From positions 1-64,000 of the forward strand of contig JAHEJX010000214.1 in the NCBI GenBank assembly GCA_024638645.1: a DNA stretch of 64,000 nt, in the 5' to 3' direction. The notes beneath the pieces were generated by a model. That model had not been told where the DNA came from. It did not search any database and saw nothing but the letters and a program-made list of their open reading frames with translations. Positions 13,916 to 23,130 of the stretch are shown here, one piece after another (within the stretch, counting starts at the first letter, position 1; each line of letters begins with the position of its first letter). The position numbers and the translations under genes are program-made. Source of the DNA: Actinomycetes bacterium (GTDB taxonomy: Bacteria > Actinomycetota > Acidimicrobiia > Spongiisociales > UBA5794).

Positions 13916-14809
13916 ATGGACAATCCAGCATTCGGAGTATTCGAGGGGGGAGGCATCAAAGGTATTGCCCTGGCGGGTGCGGCCGCGGCCGTGCTCGATT
14001 CCGGATATCGGTTTGAGCGAGTTGCCGGCACCTCAGCGGGAGCCTTGGCTGCGTCGCTGATTGCCGCTGACTACACAGCCGACGAAATGAGACGGCAGGT
14101 CGCCAAGATCGATTGGCCGTCGCTTCTCGACGGTGTGCCCGGCATCAAGATCCCGATCTTCGGCAAACACATCGCATTTCTCCGCGGTGGCGGTCTCTAC
14201 CACGGCGCTGCGTTGCAACGCACTTGGGGAAGACTCCTTGCGGAAAAGGGCGTTCACACGTTCGGTGACCTGCCCGCCGGCAAGCTTCGTATCGTGACGG
14301 TCGACCTCACCCACGAGCGCGGAGTCGTCCTCCCCGACGGGCTCGAGGAATACGGCATTGATGCCAGCAAGTTCCCAATCGCTCGGGCGGTCCGCATGTC
14401 TTCCGCCGTGCCGTTCGTGTTCAAGCCGGTGGAACTCCAGAATCGATTCACAGGCGACCTCAGCTTGATGGCGGACGGCGCCCTCGGCTCGAAGTTTCCG
14501 GTCGAATTGGTCGACCAGCGCAGCGAAACCCCGGTGTTTGGATTCCGTCCAGTCGATACTGATGACGTGCATCGCCATAATGACATTCGGGGTCCGGCCA
14601 GCCTGGCAGGCGCTGTAATGACGACTGGCATGTCGGCGCGCGAGACACTTCCGCGCGGCAGGTTCGAGTCGGTTCTCCAGATTCTCGTGCCGTCGCGCCG
14701 CGATTCGCTCGACTTCAATCTCAGCCGTCGCGAAGCCCTCGAGATGTTTGACGAGGGTTACGAAACCGGTTTCCGCTTCCTCGCCGAATCAGAGTTGATT
14801 GCCACCTGA
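13916..14809 (+). CDS. Patatin-like phospholipase
   Basis: A 297-residue lipid acyl hydrolase with the Ser-Asp dyad. The oxyanion-hole motif GGGIKG lies at residues about 11-16, the nucleophile elbow GTSAG at about 41-45, and the catalytic Asp in MADGALG at about residue 184. No signal peptide or membrane segment is seen, so it is cytosolic or membrane-associated. The start has AGAGG close upstream. The downstream sigma-factor ORF may overlap its end by 11 bases, so the two may be co-transcribed. Confidence 0.88.
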   Translation: MDNPAFGVFEGGGIKGIALAGAAAAVLDSGYRFERVAGTSAGALAASLIAADYTADEMRRQVAKIDWPSLLDGVPGIKIPIFGKHIAFLRGGGLYHGAALQRTWGRLLAEKGVHTFGDLPAGKLRIVTVDLTHERGVVLPDGLEEYGIDASKFPIARAVRMSSAVPFVFKPVELQNRFTGDLSLMADGALGSKFPVELVDQRSETPVFGFRPVDTDDVHRHNDIRGPASLAGAVMTTGMSARETLPRGRFESVLQILVPSRRDSLDFNLSRREALEMFDEGYETGFRFLAESELIAT

Positions 14810-15389
14810 ACTTGATTCTCCCGACCGACATACCGAGATAGATCCCGTGAAAGCAATTGGCCAGGATTTTCCACAGGTGCTCGCCGCCGCCCAGGAGGGA
14901 GCGGAATGGGCCTGGTCGCAGCTGTATCACAGCGTCGCCAACCAGCTTGCCGGTTACGCACGAGCCAAAGGTGCTCCTGAGCCGGAAGATGTCGTCGGAG
15001 AGGTCTTCCACGACGTTGCTCGCAACATCAACTCGTTTGCCGGCTCTGAGAGCAAGTTTCGTTCGTGGGTCTTCGGTATCGCTCACAATCGGCTGATCGA
15101 CCAGTGGCGCAAGCGGAGCCGACGCCGAAACGAGCCCGAGCCGACTCACGTCACCGTGGAGTCCGCCGAGGCGGCGGCGATCGGGAAGGCGATGGATGGA
15201 CCGGCGTTCCAAGCTCTGGAGACACTCACAGAACAGCAGCAGACCGTGCTGATGCTCAGGACCATCGCCGACCTGTCGGTCGACGAAGTGGCATCGGCGC
15301 TGGATATGAAGCCGAATGCGGTGAAAGCGACACAGCACAGAGCCGTCAAGCAGCTCCGGAAAAACCTCACCAAACCCGTAACCAAATGA
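14799..15389 (+). CDS. ECF-type RNA polymerase sigma factor
   Basis: A 196-residue sigma-70 family protein with regions 2 and 4 only. Region 2 reads ARAKGAPEPEDVVGEVFHDV and then SWVFGIAHNRLIDQWRKR; region 4 reads LSVDEVASALDMKPNAVKAT with QHRAVKQLR, the -35-reading helix-turn-helix. The start may be TTG 14799 or GTG 14847; neither has a strong ribosome site and region 2 would survive either way. Its stop is shared with the next gene (ATGA), which is the expected arrangement of a sigma factor and its membrane-bound anti-sigma partner. Confidence 0.88.
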   Translation: MPPELDSPDRHTEIDPVKAIGQDFPQVLAAAQEGAEWAWSQLYHSVANQLAGYARAKGAPEPEDVVGEVFHDVARNINSFAGSESKFRSWVFGIAHNRLIDQWRKRSRRRNEPEPTHVTVESAEAAAIGKAMDGPAFQALETLTEQQQTVLMLRTIADLSVDEVASALDMKPNAVKATQHRAVKQLRKNLTKPVTK

Positions 15390-16018
15390 CGCGCTTCAAC
15401 GGTTACCGCAGCGAGATGGAATTGCCGAACTTCGACCCGCATCAGATCGACGCAGCACTTGGCTCCGATGCCGGGACGCCTCCCGGGATGGAAGCCATCG
15501 CGTCGTGGGCCGAGTCACTGCGCGCTGAAGCGAGTGCTTCTGTTGCGCAGGCAACTGCCACGGCTCACATATCATCCATAGCAGCAGTTGCAGCCGCCGC
15601 CCCATCTGCGGCAGCGCCTGTAGCAGCAGCTCCTTCCCGACTCGAGCGCATCAAGCGCCGCCTTGTCCTCTCCGGTCTGTTTTCGGGGATATTCGCCAAG
15701 GTGTTTGCGGCATCGATTGCAGTTGCCACCGTGACCGGCGGCGTGGCGGCCACAGGGACCTTGCCCGACCCGGTGCAGGATCCGATCGCCAACGTCTACA
15801 ACACGTTCGGTTTCGACTTCCCGACTTCGGACGATTCCGAAGACGAGGACGCCAACGACGACTCGGAGAACGTAGACGACGTCGACGAGCCGACAACCAC
15901 AGTCCCTGTGGACGACCCCGATGACTCAGACGACGAATCAGACGACGAAGACAGCGACGAATCAGACGACGAAGAAGACGGTTCCAGCCGTGGCGATGAC
16001 GACCAAGACGACGACTAG
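15386..16018 (+). CDS. Putative anti-sigma factor: single-pass membrane protein with very acidic tail (RsdA-like layout)
   Basis: A 210-residue protein whose ATG overlaps the sigma-factor stop (ATGA). A short cytoplasmic N-terminus (about 1-70, Ala-rich) could bind sigma; a membrane helix lies at about 105-125 (SGIFAKVFAASIAVATVTGG); and the external tail is almost pure Asp/Glu/Ser (runs of DD, SDDE). The track ORF starting at 15065 runs through the sigma gene in another frame. Layout resembles mycobacterial RsdA, but no zinc-binding ZAS motif (HxxxCxxC) is present, so anti-sigma function rests on coupling and topology. Confidence 0.7.
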   Translation: MTRFNGYRSEMELPNFDPHQIDAALGSDAGTPPGMEAIASWAESLRAEASASVAQATATAHISSIAAVAAAAPSAAAPVAAAPSRLERIKRRLVLSGLFSGIFAKVFAASIAVATVTGGVAATGTLPDPVQDPIANVYNTFGFDFPTSDDSEDEDANDDSENVDDVDEPTTTVPVDDPDDSDDESDDEDSDESDDEEDGSSRGDDDQDDD

Positions 16019-16059
16019 ATCGCGTAGACGAACACACGTATAGGACGAGAGGACGAGGA

Positions 16060-16203
16060 ATGACTTTGAGGCTTGGCGCTGCACCATCTGTGCGTCAGTC
16101 GGGACCCCGGAAATACAACATTCCTGGGTTACGGATAAGCATGCGGTCGATTCGACCCGCCGTACTAGCAAAGCCGACGAAGACAGCCAACAAGTCTGTC
16201 TAA
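16060..16203 (+). CDS. Small basic protein, 47 residues, unknown
   Basis: An ORF below the track cut-off starts at ATG 16060 with AGAGGACGAGGA just upstream and encodes a peptide rich in Arg/Lys (MTLRLGAAPSVRQSGPRKYN...). It follows the putative anti-sigma gene by 41 bases and ends 23 bases before a strong terminator, so it would be the last gene of the sigma operon. Coding status is uncertain because the ORF is short and no family is recognised. Confidence 0.4.
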   Translation: MTLRLGAAPSVRQSGPRKYNIPGLRISMRSIRPAVLAKPTKTANKSV

Positions 16204-16226
16204 CGACAACCAGATCCTCACGTAAA

Positions 16227-16259
16227 CGAAGCGGCCCCGCCACCCCGGGGGCCGCTTCG
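16227..16259 (+). terminator. Terminator hairpin of the sigma factor operon
   Basis: A perfect 12-base stem, CGAAGCGGCCCC pairing with GGGGCCGCTTCG, with a 9-base loop. It is followed by GCTGTGTTT, a weak U-tract. It separates the sigma operon from the heliorhodopsin gene. Confidence 0.7.
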
Positions 16260-16266
16260 CTGTGTT

Positions 16267-16391
16267 TCGGGCAAGTGAGCACTTGCCCGAGTCTCTACGC
16301 AACGCTGAATGCGTTGCGTAGAGGACCGGCCCTACGGCCGGGCTTACATCCGAAATCGCGCATGTCACCGTGGATTCGCGGAGCGAATCCA
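16267..16391. repeat. Array of four further palindromes upstream of heliorhodopsin
   Basis: After the terminator come four more hairpins in tandem: 16267-16290 (TCGGGCAAGT / ACTTGCCCGA, 10 bp), 16293-16323 (CTCTACGCAACGC / GCGTTGCGTAGAG, 13 bp, perfect), 16326-16341 (CCGGCC / GGCCGG) and 16371-16391 (TGGATTCGC / GCGAATCCA, 9 bp). None has a T-run. They may be REP-like elements, a structured leader or protein-binding sites. The rest of 16204-16452 has no convincing gene. Confidence 0.7.
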
Positions 16392-16452
16392 TACGGCGTG
16401 AGGGGCGAAGGATCGTCCCCCTTCCGATCCCCCTCGACTGTTGGGTCGGCTT

Positions 16453-17271
16453 ATGGGCCAACAAGACGACGTCATCCGTGGCGATGCGCAGCCTCGGATA
16501 GTGGCTGTGACTACTTCAATTGACTCAAAGACAAGTTTCAGGCTGCGCCGGTTCAACCTATTCATGGGTGCGTTGCACCTGTTGCAGGGCGCTGCGGTGC
16601 TGGCGCTCACCAATGACTTCGCCCTTCCCGTTACAGCGACGTTTCTCGAGAACGCTCCTGGGATCGAGCCGCCGACGATCGATGTTCTGTTCGACGTCTC
16701 AATCGGCTGGGGCGTTGCCATCTTCCTGTTCATGTCTGCGGCCGCCCACTTCATAATCGCCAGCCCCGGCGTGTTCCCTTGGTACATCGCCAACCTCGAG
16801 AAGCGCCGCAACTACGCCCGCTGGATCGAGTACGCCTTCAGCTCTTCCGTGATGATCGTCCTAATCGCAATGCTGACCGGCATCTCGACGATTGACGCGC
16901 TGATCGGCCTATCTGGCGTCAACGCTGCGATGATCCTCTTCGGTCTTCTCATGGAGAAGTATGAAGATCCCGGCAAGCCAAGCTGGCTTTCTTTCAACTT
17001 CGGCAGCTTCGCGGGCGCCATCCCATGGGTTGTGATCGGGATATACATCTGGTCGCCAGGCAATCCCGGATCCCCTCCCGCATTCGTCTACGCGATCTTT
17101 GTGACGTTGTTCATCTTCTTCAATACGTTCGCCGTCAACATGGTGCTGCAGTACCGCCAGATCGGTAAGTGGAGCAGCTATGTATACGGTGAGCGCGCCT
17201 ACATCTTCCTATCGCTCTTTGCCAAGAGTGCGCTCGCGTGGCAGGTCTTCGGCGGAACATTGGCGACGTGA
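16453..17271 (+). CDS. Heliorhodopsin
   Basis: A seven-helix retinal protein of the heliorhodopsin family, distinct from type-1 proton pumps. It resembles the founding protein 48C12 throughout. Lys258 in the last helix (SLFAKSALAWQVF) is the Schiff-base lysine; Glu126 in YARWIEYAFSSSVM is the expected counterion; His42 (LHLLQ) and His99 (AAHFI) match the conserved internal histidines. Spacings to 48C12 residues 23, 80, 107 and 241 agree within two residues. The start is uncertain: ATG 16453 is listed, but GTG 16507 would give the family's usual 254 residues. Heliorhodopsins do not pump well and are proposed light sensors or enzyme regulators. No carotenoid cleavage gene for retinal synthesis is adjacent. 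Confidence 0.96.
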   Translation: MGQQDDVIRGDAQPRIVAVTTSIDSKTSFRLRRFNLFMGALHLLQGAAVLALTNDFALPVTATFLENAPGIEPPTIDVLFDVSIGWGVAIFLFMSAAAHFIIASPGVFPWYIANLEKRRNYARWIEYAFSSSVMIVLIAMLTGISTIDALIGLSGVNAAMILFGLLMEKYEDPGKPSWLSFNFGSFAGAIPWVVIGIYIWSPGNPGSPPAFVYAIFVTLFIFFNTFAVNMVLQYRQIGKWSSYVYGERAYIFLSLFAKSALAWQVFGGTLAT

Positions 17272-17323
17272 GCATCAAGTATTGGTATTAGGTATCGGCG
17301 GCGCTCCTCAGCCGATCGGAAAC

Positions 17324-17725
17324 CTAGCCCCAGGGGTTGTATGAGCCGAAGCTCCAGATGTTGCCCTCGTGGTCCTTCAGTGCGTAAGCGGCGCCCCCGT
17401 AGTCCTGCTCCTCTGGCTCCATGATGATGTTGGCTCCGAACGAGCGCGCCTTTTCGGCATGGGCGTATGGATCGTCGACAACGATGTAGATCGCGCCGGT
17501 ACCGGTCGGATCTCGGCCGTCGTCGTCTGCAGCTCGCTGATACTCGCTGTCTTGGATGCTGGAGAGCATGACCATCCCGCTTCCGTGTCGCAGCTGAGCA
17601 TGTTCGATGGCACCGCCCGTCCCGTCGACGACGAGCGTTGCCTCGAAGCCGAGGACATTCTGCAGATATTCGATGCCAGCCTGCGCATCGCGATAACGCA
17701 ACGTCGGAATGACCGTGGACGACAT
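17324..17725 (-). CDS. VOC (glyoxalase/bleomycin resistance) superfamily protein
   Basis: A 133-residue two-module beta-alpha-beta-beta-beta protein. It opens with VIPTLRYRDAQAGIEYLQNV, includes the PhnB/glyoxalase-like AIYIVVDDPYAHAEKARSFG and ends with ALKDHEGNIWSFGSY, typical of the VOC family. Metal ligands of true glyoxalase are only partly evident, so catalytic role is unknown. The ribosome site GGGAGGG is near the ATG. It is convergent with heliorhodopsin (52-base gap), and the 180-residue ORF in the other minus frame is its shadow. Confidence 0.85.
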   Translation of the reverse strand: MSSTVIPTLRYRDAQAGIEYLQNVLGFEATLVVDGTGGAIEHAQLRHGSGMVMLSSIQDSEYQRAADDDGRDPTGTGAIYIVVDDPYAHAEKARSFGANIIMEPEEQDYGGAAYALKDHEGNIWSFGSYNPWG

Positions 17726-17761: not shown

Positions 17762-18910
17762 TTATGCGGAGGCGTACGCGTCGCCGGCCAGTCGAGCGCG
17801 TTCCACCTCGTCCATACGCCAGGTGCGATTGCCCCGCCATATCACGTACGACGTAGCACCAAGCGGCACCGGGAGCACGTAGGTGATCGCCCGGAACAGC
17901 AGGATCGCCGCGACTACTTTGGCCGAAGTCGCATCATCCATGCCGATAGTCATGACGGCTGCATAACCCAGCTCGACAACGCCGACTCCTCCTGGGGTCA
18001 CAGGCAGCGCGGACACCAGGCGTACGAAGGCGAAAGCAGCAAGCGCCTCGATCCAGGTGAGGTCATCCTGGCCGATCCCCACGTTGCGCAACGCAACCAG
18101 CAAGACGATGTAGAGCGATAGGTGGCTCAGCAGCGAGGCCAACGTCAACGAAAGCCAGCGGTGCCGCAGCAAGCCAATGGTATCTCTGCGAAATGACACC
18201 GCTCGCTGCGCCCAGCTACCCAGCGGCGGCTTGCGGGCAAGACGACGGGCTCGATCCACCAGACGCCCAAAGAATCTCCCGACCCGCTCGGCAGCCTGTT
18301 CGCTACGGAGTACCAATCCAAATCCGACGATCGATCCAATGAGCACGGCAACGCCGATTGTGGCGGCGATGACTCTCGCAACGGTGGCTCCGCCCTCCAA
18401 CGCCAGAAGGGCAAGTGCCACTACCGGCATGCCCAGCTTCACGAAGTTGTTCCATATGCCGGTCACCACCGCCGAGCGGGTGATCGAGCTGAGACGGAAA
18501 CCCCAGGAGCGAAGCATGGCGACCGTCACCCCGACTCCGATGGCGCCGCCTCCCGGCAGCGTGTTGGAAACGGCAGTTGAAGCCTGGTTCACGACTGCAG
18601 CTTCTCTCAGCCGGAGCCCGGGGAGCGCGGCCACCAGCACGAACCAGTAGGTCACGAGATTCCAAACGCCCACGACAAACAACCCGAACAGCTCGAGACC
18701 GGTCATGGCGCTGATCGTGTCCCAGACATCGCCGTAACTGGCGATCCGGGGCATCACACCAACGAAGATCCCGACGACCACAACGGTGGAGATGAAGCTC
18801 TGAAGGATGCGCTTACCTGTGACGAGGCGTTCCTTCTCTCCGGCGTCGAGAGCATCTACCTCGTCCGGGACCACGCTGCTTACAGTCACGTCGGTCCCCT
18901 TATCTTCCAT
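17762..18910 (-). CDS. Flippase-like UPF0104 / LPG-synthase TM-region membrane protein
   Basis: A 382-residue integral membrane protein with about eight helices, matching the MprF flippase-half family (UPF0104). Family features include NTLPGGGAIGVGVTVAML in the middle and SALPVTPGGVGVVELGYAAV near the C-terminus. ATG 18910 is chosen because GGGAG lies 5-9 bases upstream; the track start at 18976 lacks one. These proteins translocate lipids or are of unknown function; no lysyl-transferase domain is attached. It diverges from two PAP2 phosphatase genes, which suggests a shared role in lipid or lipid-phosphate handling. Confidence 0.85.
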   Translation of the reverse strand: MEDKGTDVTVSSVVPDEVDALDAGEKERLVTGKRILQSFISTVVVVGIFVGVMPRIASYGDVWDTISAMTGLELFGLFVVGVWNLVTYWFVLVAALPGLRLREAAVVNQASTAVSNTLPGGGAIGVGVTVAMLRSWGFRLSSITRSAVVTGIWNNFVKLGMPVVALALLALEGGATVARVIAATIGVAVLIGSIVGFGLVLRSEQAAERVGRFFGRLVDRARRLARKPPLGSWAQRAVSFRRDTIGLLRHRWLSLTLASLLSHLSLYIVLLVALRNVGIGQDDLTWIEALAAFAFVRLVSALPVTPGGVGVVELGYAAVMTIGMDDATSAKVVAAILLFRAITYVLPVPLGATSYVIWRGNRTWRMDEVERARLAGDAYASA

Positions 18911-19057
18911 CGGCTCCCAGGCTACAGATGCGGACGCCCCATCGCCCAGCATCGCTACGCGCACAGCTGGATTCACGTTGGGATGCGGTCGGGAACGCGC
19001 CGTTCGGCCCTGGCGGACGCCGAATAAGGGCGCGATGTTGTCAGTTGGAGGTCAATC

Positions 19058-20426: not shown

Positions 20427-21253
20427 CGATTCGCCCGGTCGGTTCTCTCCCGGAGTTCAAAGGCCGGATAGAAGCCGAGGTTTTCTTCAGCGGCGATCGG
20501 AGCCGCGTCTGCCATACGCTTCTCCGCGTTGAAGACATAGGTGATGCAACCGCCTTCGAACCTGAAAAACCAATTGCCCTCGTAGACCGGGCTTGGGGCG
20601 AGGTCCTCGATCTGATCCAGCGCTTCTGCGGGTGTGATCCTGGAGAAGTTCTGGCCGCCGACCGTACGGAGCTCGACCGTCAATTCCGCCGCGTCGAGCT
20701 CGTCTATGAACCACACGAAGTCTGACCGCATCGCGGCCGCAGCCAATCGTGTCGAGATGTCTGCAGCGGTGTCGTCGTCGAGATCCAACCTCACGGGCCG
20801 CTCGTCGAGCTCCACCGCTTGCCATAGGTCGATCAACCCAATTGCGTAGCTCAGCTGTTGCGCACTCGCTGGAACGACGGCGACCGTGATCAGCGACGGG
20901 ATATGTGTGACGTCCTCGTAACGCTCGACGTCTGGAACGCCGCTGTCCCGCCGAATGGCGTCTCCGACGTCGCACGACTCGGTGACGATTGCGGCTAGGA
21001 AGGTATCGGTTCCCTCGACGATGGCGATGCCTGCTCGGCCGGACTCCGCTTCGAATTCGACGTGGTCCCATCCGGGATCGATGGTCACAAAGCACGGCGT
21101 GTAGCGAGCGGTCGGCACGGATTGTGCCGCAAGGATGTTTGCCGCCGTGGGAACTCGAACGTGGGGCTCGCAGCTTTGCTCACCCAAGCCAAGTCGGCTG
21201 CACGCCGAAAGAAGGACCAGCAGCGACATCACAGCGGCGGCTATCTGCTTCAC
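20423..21253 (-). CDS. Lipoprotein of unknown function, coupled to PAP2-kinase gene
   Basis: A 276-residue exported protein with lipobox SLLVLLSACSRLG. GTG 21253 overlaps the stop of the PAP2-kinase gene (GTGA), so it is translationally coupled to it; the track start at 21352 lies inside that gene. The mature sequence (cysteines near the start, EFEAESGRAGIAIVEGTDTF, later FRFEGGCITYVFN) matches no family I know. Coupling to a lipid-phosphatase/kinase fusion hints at an extracytoplasmic accessory or sensor role; this is inference. Confidence 0.75.
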   Translation of the reverse strand: MKQIAAAVMSLLVLLSACSRLGLGEQSCEPHVRVPTAANILAAQSVPTARYTPCFVTIDPGWDHVEFEAESGRAGIAIVEGTDTFLAAIVTESCDVGDAIRRDSGVPDVERYEDVTHIPSLITVAVVPASAQQLSYAIGLIDLWQAVELDERPVRLDLDDDTAADISTRLAAAAMRSDFVWFIDELDAAELTVELRTVGGQNFSRITPAEALDQIEDLAPSPVYEGNWFFRFEGGCITYVFNAEKRMADAAPIAAEENLGFYPAFELRERTDRANR

Positions 21254-23130
21254 AACACCCCCGTCCCTCTGATCTCCGAGTAGATCTGGAACACGACTAC
21301 GCCCACGATGGACGCGGCAATGGCGGTCCGGAAGATCCGCTGCGAACTCCACCGCTGGATGGCGATCGCTTCCCGGAATGGCGTGATGTCCTGGAATTCC
21401 TCGACGATGTCGATTCCCGTTTGGCGCTTGTGCTCGGCGAGCAGTGTTCGCGTCTGCGCGGGGATCGTGACGCTGCGGGTGGCGGCAAATGCCTCTGCGA
21501 TGTCTGTCGGAGCAAAGTGAAGAAGCGCTCGCTCATAGACCGCCTCCACGTCCGACTTCAGAGCTAGGAGAAGCATCATGTTGGCGAGGTCGACGGCCTG
21601 GCGCCACGGGCTGGGACGGATCATGCCGAAGGCAACGTCGATCAGCACCAGTTTGCCGTGATGCACCATCACGTTGGAAGGCTTTATGTCTCGATGGGCG
21701 AGCCCGTTGTCCCACATCAGGCGTATCGCCCGCAAAGCATCGTCCATCATCCGTTCTGTGACCTTCGCTGCAGTTATCTCCGCGGCGTCATGTAGGAACT
21801 CGTTGACCAGGAGGTATTCACGCTCTGGGGTGATCTCAACGACCGCAATCGGTCGGGCAGTCGGCACTCCACAGCCGACCATCACTCTCTGGATGTAGTC
21901 CTCGTATTCGACGAACCTCCTGACGCTCGTGAAACGAACCTCGTCCTCGAGTGCCCCGTAGAGGATCGACCGGCCAATCTTGTACCACCGGTCCGAGTTG
22001 AGATGGGTCTGGCTGTAGAGCTTGGCAAAGAGATACGTGTCGCCTGTGCCGTCGGTGCCGGCAACCCTGATACGCAGCGGGGTCGAACCTCCAGACTCCT
22101 CGAGATTGAATGGCTCCACGTCGATCACTTCAACACCGATCTGCTCTTGGACTGCCCGACGAATCGCCACCCCTCGGCTCCCCGACACGTCGAGATGGGC
22201 CTTCACACCCGTGCTCCACGTGACGGGGAAGATTGAGTTCGGGGCGAACCATCTGAACAGCACAAACGCCACAGCTGGAGCGAACAGCGTCGATACGAAC
22301 CCGTCAGTCGGGTGATCGATACCCAAGTACATTCGCGAAATCGCTGCAACGCCCACGATGACGCCGGCGCTCCACATGGCGATCGCCCGCCACTTGCCTT
22401 TCGCGACCAAAGATAGGGACATCGCCATGGCAGTAACCGAGAGCGACGCAATCGGGGCCGAAGGGTGAGACGGCCCGTCCCAAGTTCCGAGAATCTCGAC
22501 GGTCGGGCGGATACGCCCGATTGAGTCCTGCAGCTGCTCGATCGAGATTTCAACAACTGCGATTGCGAAGAGCACTGCGAAGAAGTGGCGCCACCGTCTG
22601 ACTACGGCCAAGGCAACGAGAGAGCCGATCCGGAGGAAGCGGATAACTCCCTCTGAGGTGAACCAGTTGAAGAACTTGGCCGTCGATATCCCGGCTTCGG
22701 TACGGAGGTCGACCATCCAATCAAGGATGGTCAGATCCCTTTGCGTCCACCACGACGTCGTGGCGGGTGCGGCGAACAGGCTCAGCCACACGAGGATCAT
22801 CAGCAATCCGGCCCCCAGCCACGCCCGTCCACCAAAGCTGAGCTCACGCGGCAGTGGGGCCTTTTCACCCGATGGCCGACGCCGCCGGCCCGTGATGAGA
22901 ACACCCGCGATCCGCAGCTCGCGCCGCTCCCCCAACACGGCCAACTCGGGCGCAACCGGAAGCGTCGGGCCCATCAGCTGTGGAGGCATGTCGGATGCGG
23001 CCGCGTACGGTTCCGGCGCCTGCTCCTGTTGCTCGGCTTGCTCAGAGGTCCGTTCCACGTTCCTCCATCCAACCCCGTCCAAGATCAGGCTATAGCAGCC
23101 TGCAAGCGGGCGATACGGCACAAAGGCCAT
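21250..23130 (-). CDS. Fusion of degenerate PAP2 membrane domain with protein-kinase-like domain
   Basis: A 626-residue protein. After a basic cytoplasmic N-terminus (1-100) comes a PAP2-like six-helix domain (about 105-300). Its C1 motif reads QDSIGRIRP (Lys changed to Gln) and its C2 reads PSAPIAS instead of PSGH, so the general-acid His is missing, while C3 is kept (SRMYLGIDHPTD). Residues about 340-560 form a kinase-like domain with a candidate Lys (FAKLYSQ), HRDIKPSNV and metal-binding Asp (LIDVAFG). A final helix lies near 600. So the kinase looks active and the phosphatase does not. The start may be lower, at GTG 23055. It is coupled to the lipoprotein gene. Confidence 0.82.
   Translation of the reverse strand: MAFVPYRPLAGCYSLILDGVGWRNVERTSEQAEQQEQAPEPYAAASDMPPQLMGPTLPVAPELAVLGERRELRIAGVLITGRRRRPSGEKAPLPRELSFGGRAWLGAGLLMILVWLSLFAAPATTSWWTQRDLTILDWMVDLRTEAGISTAKFFNWFTSEGVIRFLRIGSLVALAVVRRWRHFFAVLFAIAVVEISIEQLQDSIGRIRPTVEILGTWDGPSHPSAPIASLSVTAMAMSLSLVAKGKWRAIAMWSAGVIVGVAAISRMYLGIDHPTDGFVSTLFAPAVAFVLFRWFAPNSIFPVTWSTGVKAHLDVSGSRGVAIRRAVQEQIGVEVIDVEPFNLEESGGSTPLRIRVAGTDGTGDTYLFAKLYSQTHLNSDRWYKIGRSILYGALEDEVRFTSVRRFVEYEDYIQRVMVGCGVPTARPIAVVEITPEREYLLVNEFLHDAAEITAAKVTERMMDDALRAIRLMWDNGLAHRDIKPSNVMVHHGKLVLIDVAFGMIRPSPWRQAVDLANMMLLLALKSDVEAVYERALLHFAPTDIAEAFAATRSVTIPAQTRTLLAEHKRQTGIDIVEEFQDITPFREAIAIQRWSSQRIFRTAIAASIVGVVVFQIYSEIRGTGVL

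Follow-up and report, generated by a model that had tools for sequence, protein, structure and literature searches.

A heliorhodopsin gene in an Acidimicrobiia genome lies at a site that is empty in its congeners, next to an apparently undescribed multi-hairpin element

The function of heliorhodopsins (HeRs) is still argued from neighbour genes. Three HeRs have partners described in the literature: AbHeR binds and regulates glutamine synthetase (PMC9529153), TfHeR does so with a photolyase (PMC9769723) and OcHeR with an ABC transporter (PMC11109279). We analysed a 64,000-nucleotide stretch of an Actinomycetes bacterium of lineage UBA5794 (assembly GCA_024638645.1, contig JAHEJX010000214.1, positions 1 to 64,000, forward strand; hereafter the window), in which an initial annotation had described an HeR gene. 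The gene belongs by all our comparisons to the known HeR family, its site is empty in the other genomes of its genus, and an interspersed element made of several hairpins lies directly 5' of it.

The open reading frame runs, as initially annotated, from ATG 16453 to a stop at 17269-17271 and encodes 272 amino acids. PF18761 was the sole Pfam model matching the protein (333.7 bits, cut-off 26.7, E 7e-100; residues 31-270 on profile positions 1-242 of 242), and the NCBIfam equivalog for HeR, NF038020, scored 329 bits against a cut-off of 100. The type-1 microbial rhodopsin model PF01036 gave no match in the Pfam scan of the window protein or in the source genome. With phmmer, residues 30-270 aligned with HeR 48C12 (E 6e-73), 128 of the 241 aligned residues being identical (~53%), and the TaHeR structure was matched too; the alignment with 48C12, initially described as end to end, covers these residues but not the first 29 from ATG 16453. 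H23, H80, E107, S237 and K241 of 48C12 align with H42, H99, E126, S254 and K258 of the window protein (numbered from ATG 16453), the last of these being the Schiff-base lysine, with its codon at 17224-17226, and S254-K258 the SxxxK motif of helix 7. Every column with at least 93% conservation across 60 HeRs is intact. An AlphaFold2 model (pLDDT 94.5) compared by Foldseek gave template-modelling (TM) scores of 0.93 to 6su3 (48C12) and 0.87-0.88 to TaHeR, against about 0.5-0.7 to type-1 rhodopsins. Counted over segments set by hand, lysines and arginines total 11 for the N-terminus plus the presumed cytoplasmic loops, and none occur in the C-terminus or the presumed outer loops, a pattern that leans towards an N-in orientation. 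The sequence and profile matches, the modelled fold and the distribution of charge bear out the claim of an HeR with all conserved residues and confirm the gene, at the level of sequence and model, as a member of the known family PF18761/NF038020. A grouping with type-1 rhodopsins, raised in the initial annotation as the alternative, was not seen, PF18761 being the only Pfam match and the fold scores favouring HeR.

The start codon had been given as either ATG 16453 or GTG 16507; both are in frame, as is TTG 16441. In the nearest relative, L087 (MNQTDSTTTSRLRRFN), 10 residues precede RLRRFN, and a start at GTG 16507 leaves 11. Because of this resemblance in N-terminal length, GTG 16507 is the favoured start, not a proven one, and would give a gene at 16507-17271 on the + strand encoding 254 amino acids with seven predicted transmembrane helices.

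We then compared the locus within the genus, which comprises four genomes: the source genome, G001, G002 and G003. The segment from about 16264 to 17323, which carries HeR, is missing from this site in all three congeners, where the flanking genes abut without HeR. In the window, the left flank lies on the + strand and consists of a patatin-like phospholipase gene (13916-14809; PF01734), an extracytoplasmic function (ECF) sigma factor gene (14799-15389; PF04542, PF08281, TIGR02937) and a gene (15386-16018) whose product has an acidic tail and is putatively anti-sigma-like, a role suggested by its position behind the ECF gene. The ECF operon ends with a conserved basic micro-ORF of 47 amino acids (16060-16203; MTLRLGAAP...) and a terminator-like hairpin with a 12-bp stem (16227-16259), which is conserved in the same-genus genomes. 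On the right, on the - strand, are genes for a VOC/glyoxalase-superfamily protein (17324-17725; PF00903), convergent with HeR, and for an LPG_synthase_TM (flippase-like) membrane protein (17762-18976; PF03706). Searching the relatives with a joined query of the patatin, ECF, VOC and LPG-synthase proteins, we found in G002 the order patatin, ECF, putative anti-sigma, micro-ORF, terminator and VOC, with HeR absent from the site. G003 has the junction of micro-ORF, terminator and VOC on one contig, with patatin and ECF on another, and in G001 it is the LPG-synthase gene that comes after the terminator. The window has about 1,060 bases between terminator and VOC, G002 and G003 only tens. HeR is found at other sites in G002 and G003, and a genome search did not find it in G001. 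Since the flanking block is intact without HeR in the rest of the genus, HeR probably arrived after the block had formed, and the simplest reading would be a gain of HeR in the lineage of the window.

The HeR tree is consistent with such an independent history. In this tree, which leaves out five HeR rows because an upstream stop fell within their extracted start, the window HeR forms its own branch. Forcing it together with the HeRs of the G002/G003 type and two g11 sisters cost 54 log units and was rejected by the approximately unbiased (AU) test (p-AU 0.0004, a value that is somewhat optimistic because the two g11 sequences were picked after the tree was seen); by this test the window HeR does not group with the same-genus HeRs. 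Constraining it to the other g11 type fitted as well as the free tree (p-AU 0.535). One genome, G029, carries both HeR types (G029:C99:4526-5242 and G029:C59:19703-20422; L039, L072), and because these fall in two separate clades, the tree suggests two old HeR types in this family. The HeRs of G002 and G003 are close relatives that share nothing in their 4 kb flanks, and the same was found among four loci of genus g9, in g5 and in g32. With flanks differing even among close relatives, HeR by these comparisons relocates often, not always, and here it behaves as a relocating single gene.

Neighbours at other HeR loci were compared by tblastn, using window genes from 4 to 28 kb against 66 fetched HeR-carrying loci. 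No immediate neighbour was shared between the window and these loci; the few matches were weak (27-34% identity) and mostly kilobases away from HeR, including the single match of the window ECF gene, near the HeR of L044 (27% identity, 4.9 kb off). Of 57 HeR loci, 17 had a gene on the same strand no more than 50 bp away on one side or the other, and 34 had a convergent gene downstream, as called by a crude gene caller (greedy, with a GC bias) that missed HeR itself in 11 loci on the first pass and was given its position in the second. Families recurring within six genes of HeR were SDR/DUF2867 and ABC ATPases (9 loci each), ECF sigma factors and DUF427 (5 each), and photolyase and DUF1295 (4 each). 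These counts were scored without a control set of distant genes and are therefore descriptive rather than a measure of enrichment; the families agree with groups named in earlier work (PMC11109279, PMC8612252, PMC12008989). The initial annotation had regarded the neighbour genes as key evidence on function and the locus as useful for that reason. This argument finds no support here, because the same left block exists without HeR in three congeners and the tested neighbours recur beside none of the other fetched HeR loci.

We further investigated how widely HeR and its chromophore pathway are distributed, in a comparison set of 149 genomes (the source genome and 148 relatives). HeR occurs in 59 of them (58 above the cut-off, some as fragments), with one copy in the source genome; type-1 rhodopsins occur in 14, the source genome not among them. 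Blh (PF15461) was not detected in any of the 149, and the same search was positive in 13 of 247 genomes of a wider set across the phylum, so it is able to detect the family. A look for lycopene cyclase and carotenoid dioxygenase genes had been advised with the initial annotation. For the former, the source genome held nothing above cut-off (PF18916 without a match, PF05834 with one 36-position match below it); for the latter, it contains one RPE65-family oxygenase, which at 105 bits falls well below the 675-bit cut-off of the NCBIfam carotenoid-dioxygenase equivalog. The presence of HeR in so many genomes without a detectable Blh sharpens the question of where retinal comes from. Function without Blh is possible, since an actinobacterium without known retinal genes has been reported to contain retinal and a working rhodopsin (PMC7734400).

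Judging from sequence, structural model and analogy, we consider it fairly probable that the window HeR works as a light sensor that binds retinal and acts on a partner whose gene lies elsewhere, with the retinal either scavenged or produced through a pathway not yet recognised. With seven membrane helices in inverted orientation, the protein would bind retinal on Lys258, with Glu126 as counterion, and light absorption would lead to a conformational change. By analogy with other HeRs, its positively charged cytoplasmic loops could then contact a soluble or membrane partner in a light-dependent manner. Such a partner would act in trans and is probably encoded elsewhere in the genome, because HeR has no conserved neighbour and stands alone between the upstream terminator and a convergent gene downstream.

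Several points weigh against this reading and the history on which it builds. The source genome is 84.7% complete and in 215 contigs, and no partner was identified for the window HeR. The empty sites may reflect one ancestral insertion followed by losses in the three congeners, and the missing chromophore pathway could mean that HeR is not in its holo form in the cell. Relocation is not universal, since the HeR locus is syntenic in g11 type A, g22, g36, g58 and g65, and with recurrent neighbours in some relatives, context can be informative in other lineages.

The missing pathway is also what an HeR without function would show, one recently acquired, never receiving retinal and heading for loss. 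Blh went undetected in the source genome and its 148 relatives, no lycopene cyclase exceeded its cut-off and the gene stands isolated; but the strongly conserved residues are all intact, the gene occurs in more than a third of the group (59/149), the genome has an RPE65-family carotenoid oxygenase, and retinal with a working rhodopsin occurs in the actinobacterium cited above. We regard loss of function as improbable. Lower still, because of the empty sites in the congeners, we rate a tie to the ECF sigma/putative anti-sigma operon on the left, in which light on HeR would free the sigma factor and so switch a light-responsive regulon. HeR adjoins this operon on the same strand, in five relatives ECF sigma genes of another type occur no more than a few genes from HeR, and a report on UBA5794 genomes describes Sigma70-type regulators close to it (PMC12008989). 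However, G001, G002 and G003 keep the operon, its own terminator and the micro-ORF with no HeR at the site, the terminator and the hairpin block intervene in the window, and apart from the weak L044 match the window ECF is beside no other HeR; a partnership with this operon thus seems quite unlikely. Proton transport driven or gated by light, a role reported for an HeR of a giant virus, is very unlikely for a protein about 53% identical to bacterial 48C12, ion pumping having been demonstrated for no HeR according to a 2021 survey (PMC8612252).

Beyond HeR, Pfam upheld the neighbours listed initially; TetR, Nudix, patatin and ECF sigma genes lie to the left and the VOC/glyoxalase gene to the right. 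The putative anti-sigma-like protein matched no Pfam or NCBIfam family; its homologues in the same-genus genomes are 47-56% identical, and the micro-ORF does not vary in length among the four genomes of the genus (window, L120, L121, L123). No consensus sigma-70 promoter was found upstream of HeR in 15900-17500. Further to the right, on the - strand at 21250-23130, the window encodes a 626-amino-acid protein in which a PAP2 phosphatase-like membrane part is fused to a protein-kinase/RIO-like part.

What separates the ECF operon from HeR is the terminator hairpin and a multi-hairpin repeat element (16264-16433, + strand), a chain of perfect hairpins with a fold z of -8.0. A tRNA or known RNA upstream of HeR was set aside, as the window contains no tRNA and Rfam gave no match in 15900-17500 at E up to 1, the element copy included; at the loci of other copies, three sub-threshold Rfam hits were at chance level. 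A DNA search found similar stretches in G002 and in a tRNA array of the source genome. This array (L137; G000:C154:9000-17000) packs 22 same-strand tRNA genes into 8 kb, and its spacers contain copies of the element. From an alignment of eight copies, in which 12 of 22 pairs show compensatory changes, we built a model, R1, with which the core of the window copy (16264-16369) scores 92 bits. R1 matched 11 of 60 genomes at E up to 0.01, the source genome included, with 20 matches in G000, 8 in G001, 35 in G002, 27 in G003, 22 in G020, 11 in G004, 7 in G013 and fewer in G029, G005, G014 and G072; these are counts of matches, some of which overlap as opposite-strand hits to one place. In an alignment of 41 matches, fitted to R1 and including eight rows that trained it, 93.4% of cells pair and both-side changes number 151 versus 42 in shuffles, while slid controls collapse.

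Further copies lie at L138, L139, L140, L141, L142, L173 and other loci, some as opposed pairs between convergent genes (e.g., G002:C57 15126+/15394-). In 17 of 36 copies, a stop codon ending an open frame of 100 codons or more begins 0-9 bases ahead of the element, whereas random positions in the same loci gave a mean of 0.9; the 36 are those in the fetched loci rather than a random sample. The window copy is preceded by the operon terminator, not by a stop codon. Helix 1 contains very few G-U pairs, a hint, short of proof, that both strands or the DNA form of the element matter. The R1 search listed no other match near an HeR, the nearest being about 5 kb away (G029:C59), and joint travel of HeR and element was rejected. 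In the literature we found no REP family of Acidimicrobiia and no stop-codon link for one. This interspersed element appears to be undescribed and, among the 60 genomes, is limited to a few genera of the actinobacterial family. A tentative proposal, plausible but short of probable, is that the element family sits preferentially at gene 3' ends, starting a few bases at most from the stop codon, and acts as nucleic acid, in termination, mRNA end protection or DNA structure, and that single genes of the HeR type may come and go there.

Altogether, the clean empty-site comparison indicates that in this order HeR neighbours can be accidental, because the same flanks exist without HeR and close HeRs sit at unrelated sites. 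Synteny arguments about HeR function fit only lineages with a conserved locus. The covarying element beside HeR, many of whose copies directly follow a stop codon, makes a separate lead.

Set against described HeRs, the window protein resembles 48C12 and other HeRs of Actinomycetota in its Schiff-base lysine, glutamate counterion, two histidines, SxxxK motif, closely similar predicted fold and a charge pattern leaning N-in. It differs in lying on another branch of the HeR tree and in having no adjacent glutamine synthetase or other known operon partner. With the operon-linked HeRs (AbHeR with glutamine synthetase, TfHeR with photolyase, OcHeR with OmrDE) it shares the family and several basic residues in the cytoplasmic loops, whereas it lacks a same-operon partner, with a terminator upstream and a convergent gene downstream.

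For the element, the closest known systems are repetitive extragenic palindromic (REP) sequences and bacterial interspersed mosaic elements (BIMEs). An integron attC site was considered and set aside, the element having several short hairpins and not one long imperfect one. RAYT-driven REPs are unsupported, since the carrier genomes are without a Y1 transposase: PF01797 was found in one of 60 genomes (G012), in none of those rich in the element, and in five control genomes. Like REPs and BIMEs, the element is an interspersed set of palindromic hairpins, mostly intergenic and sometimes in opposed pairs between convergent genes, and its position recalls GTAG-type REPs, which start at or beside stop codons (PMC3733652). 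In several copies the TAG preceding the element is the stop codon of the gene. The end tag of REPs is GTAG or CGTC, whereas copies of the element start mostly with GTTTCG or ATTTCG, and at about 170 bases with 3-5 hairpins the element is far longer than the 20-40 bp of a REP.
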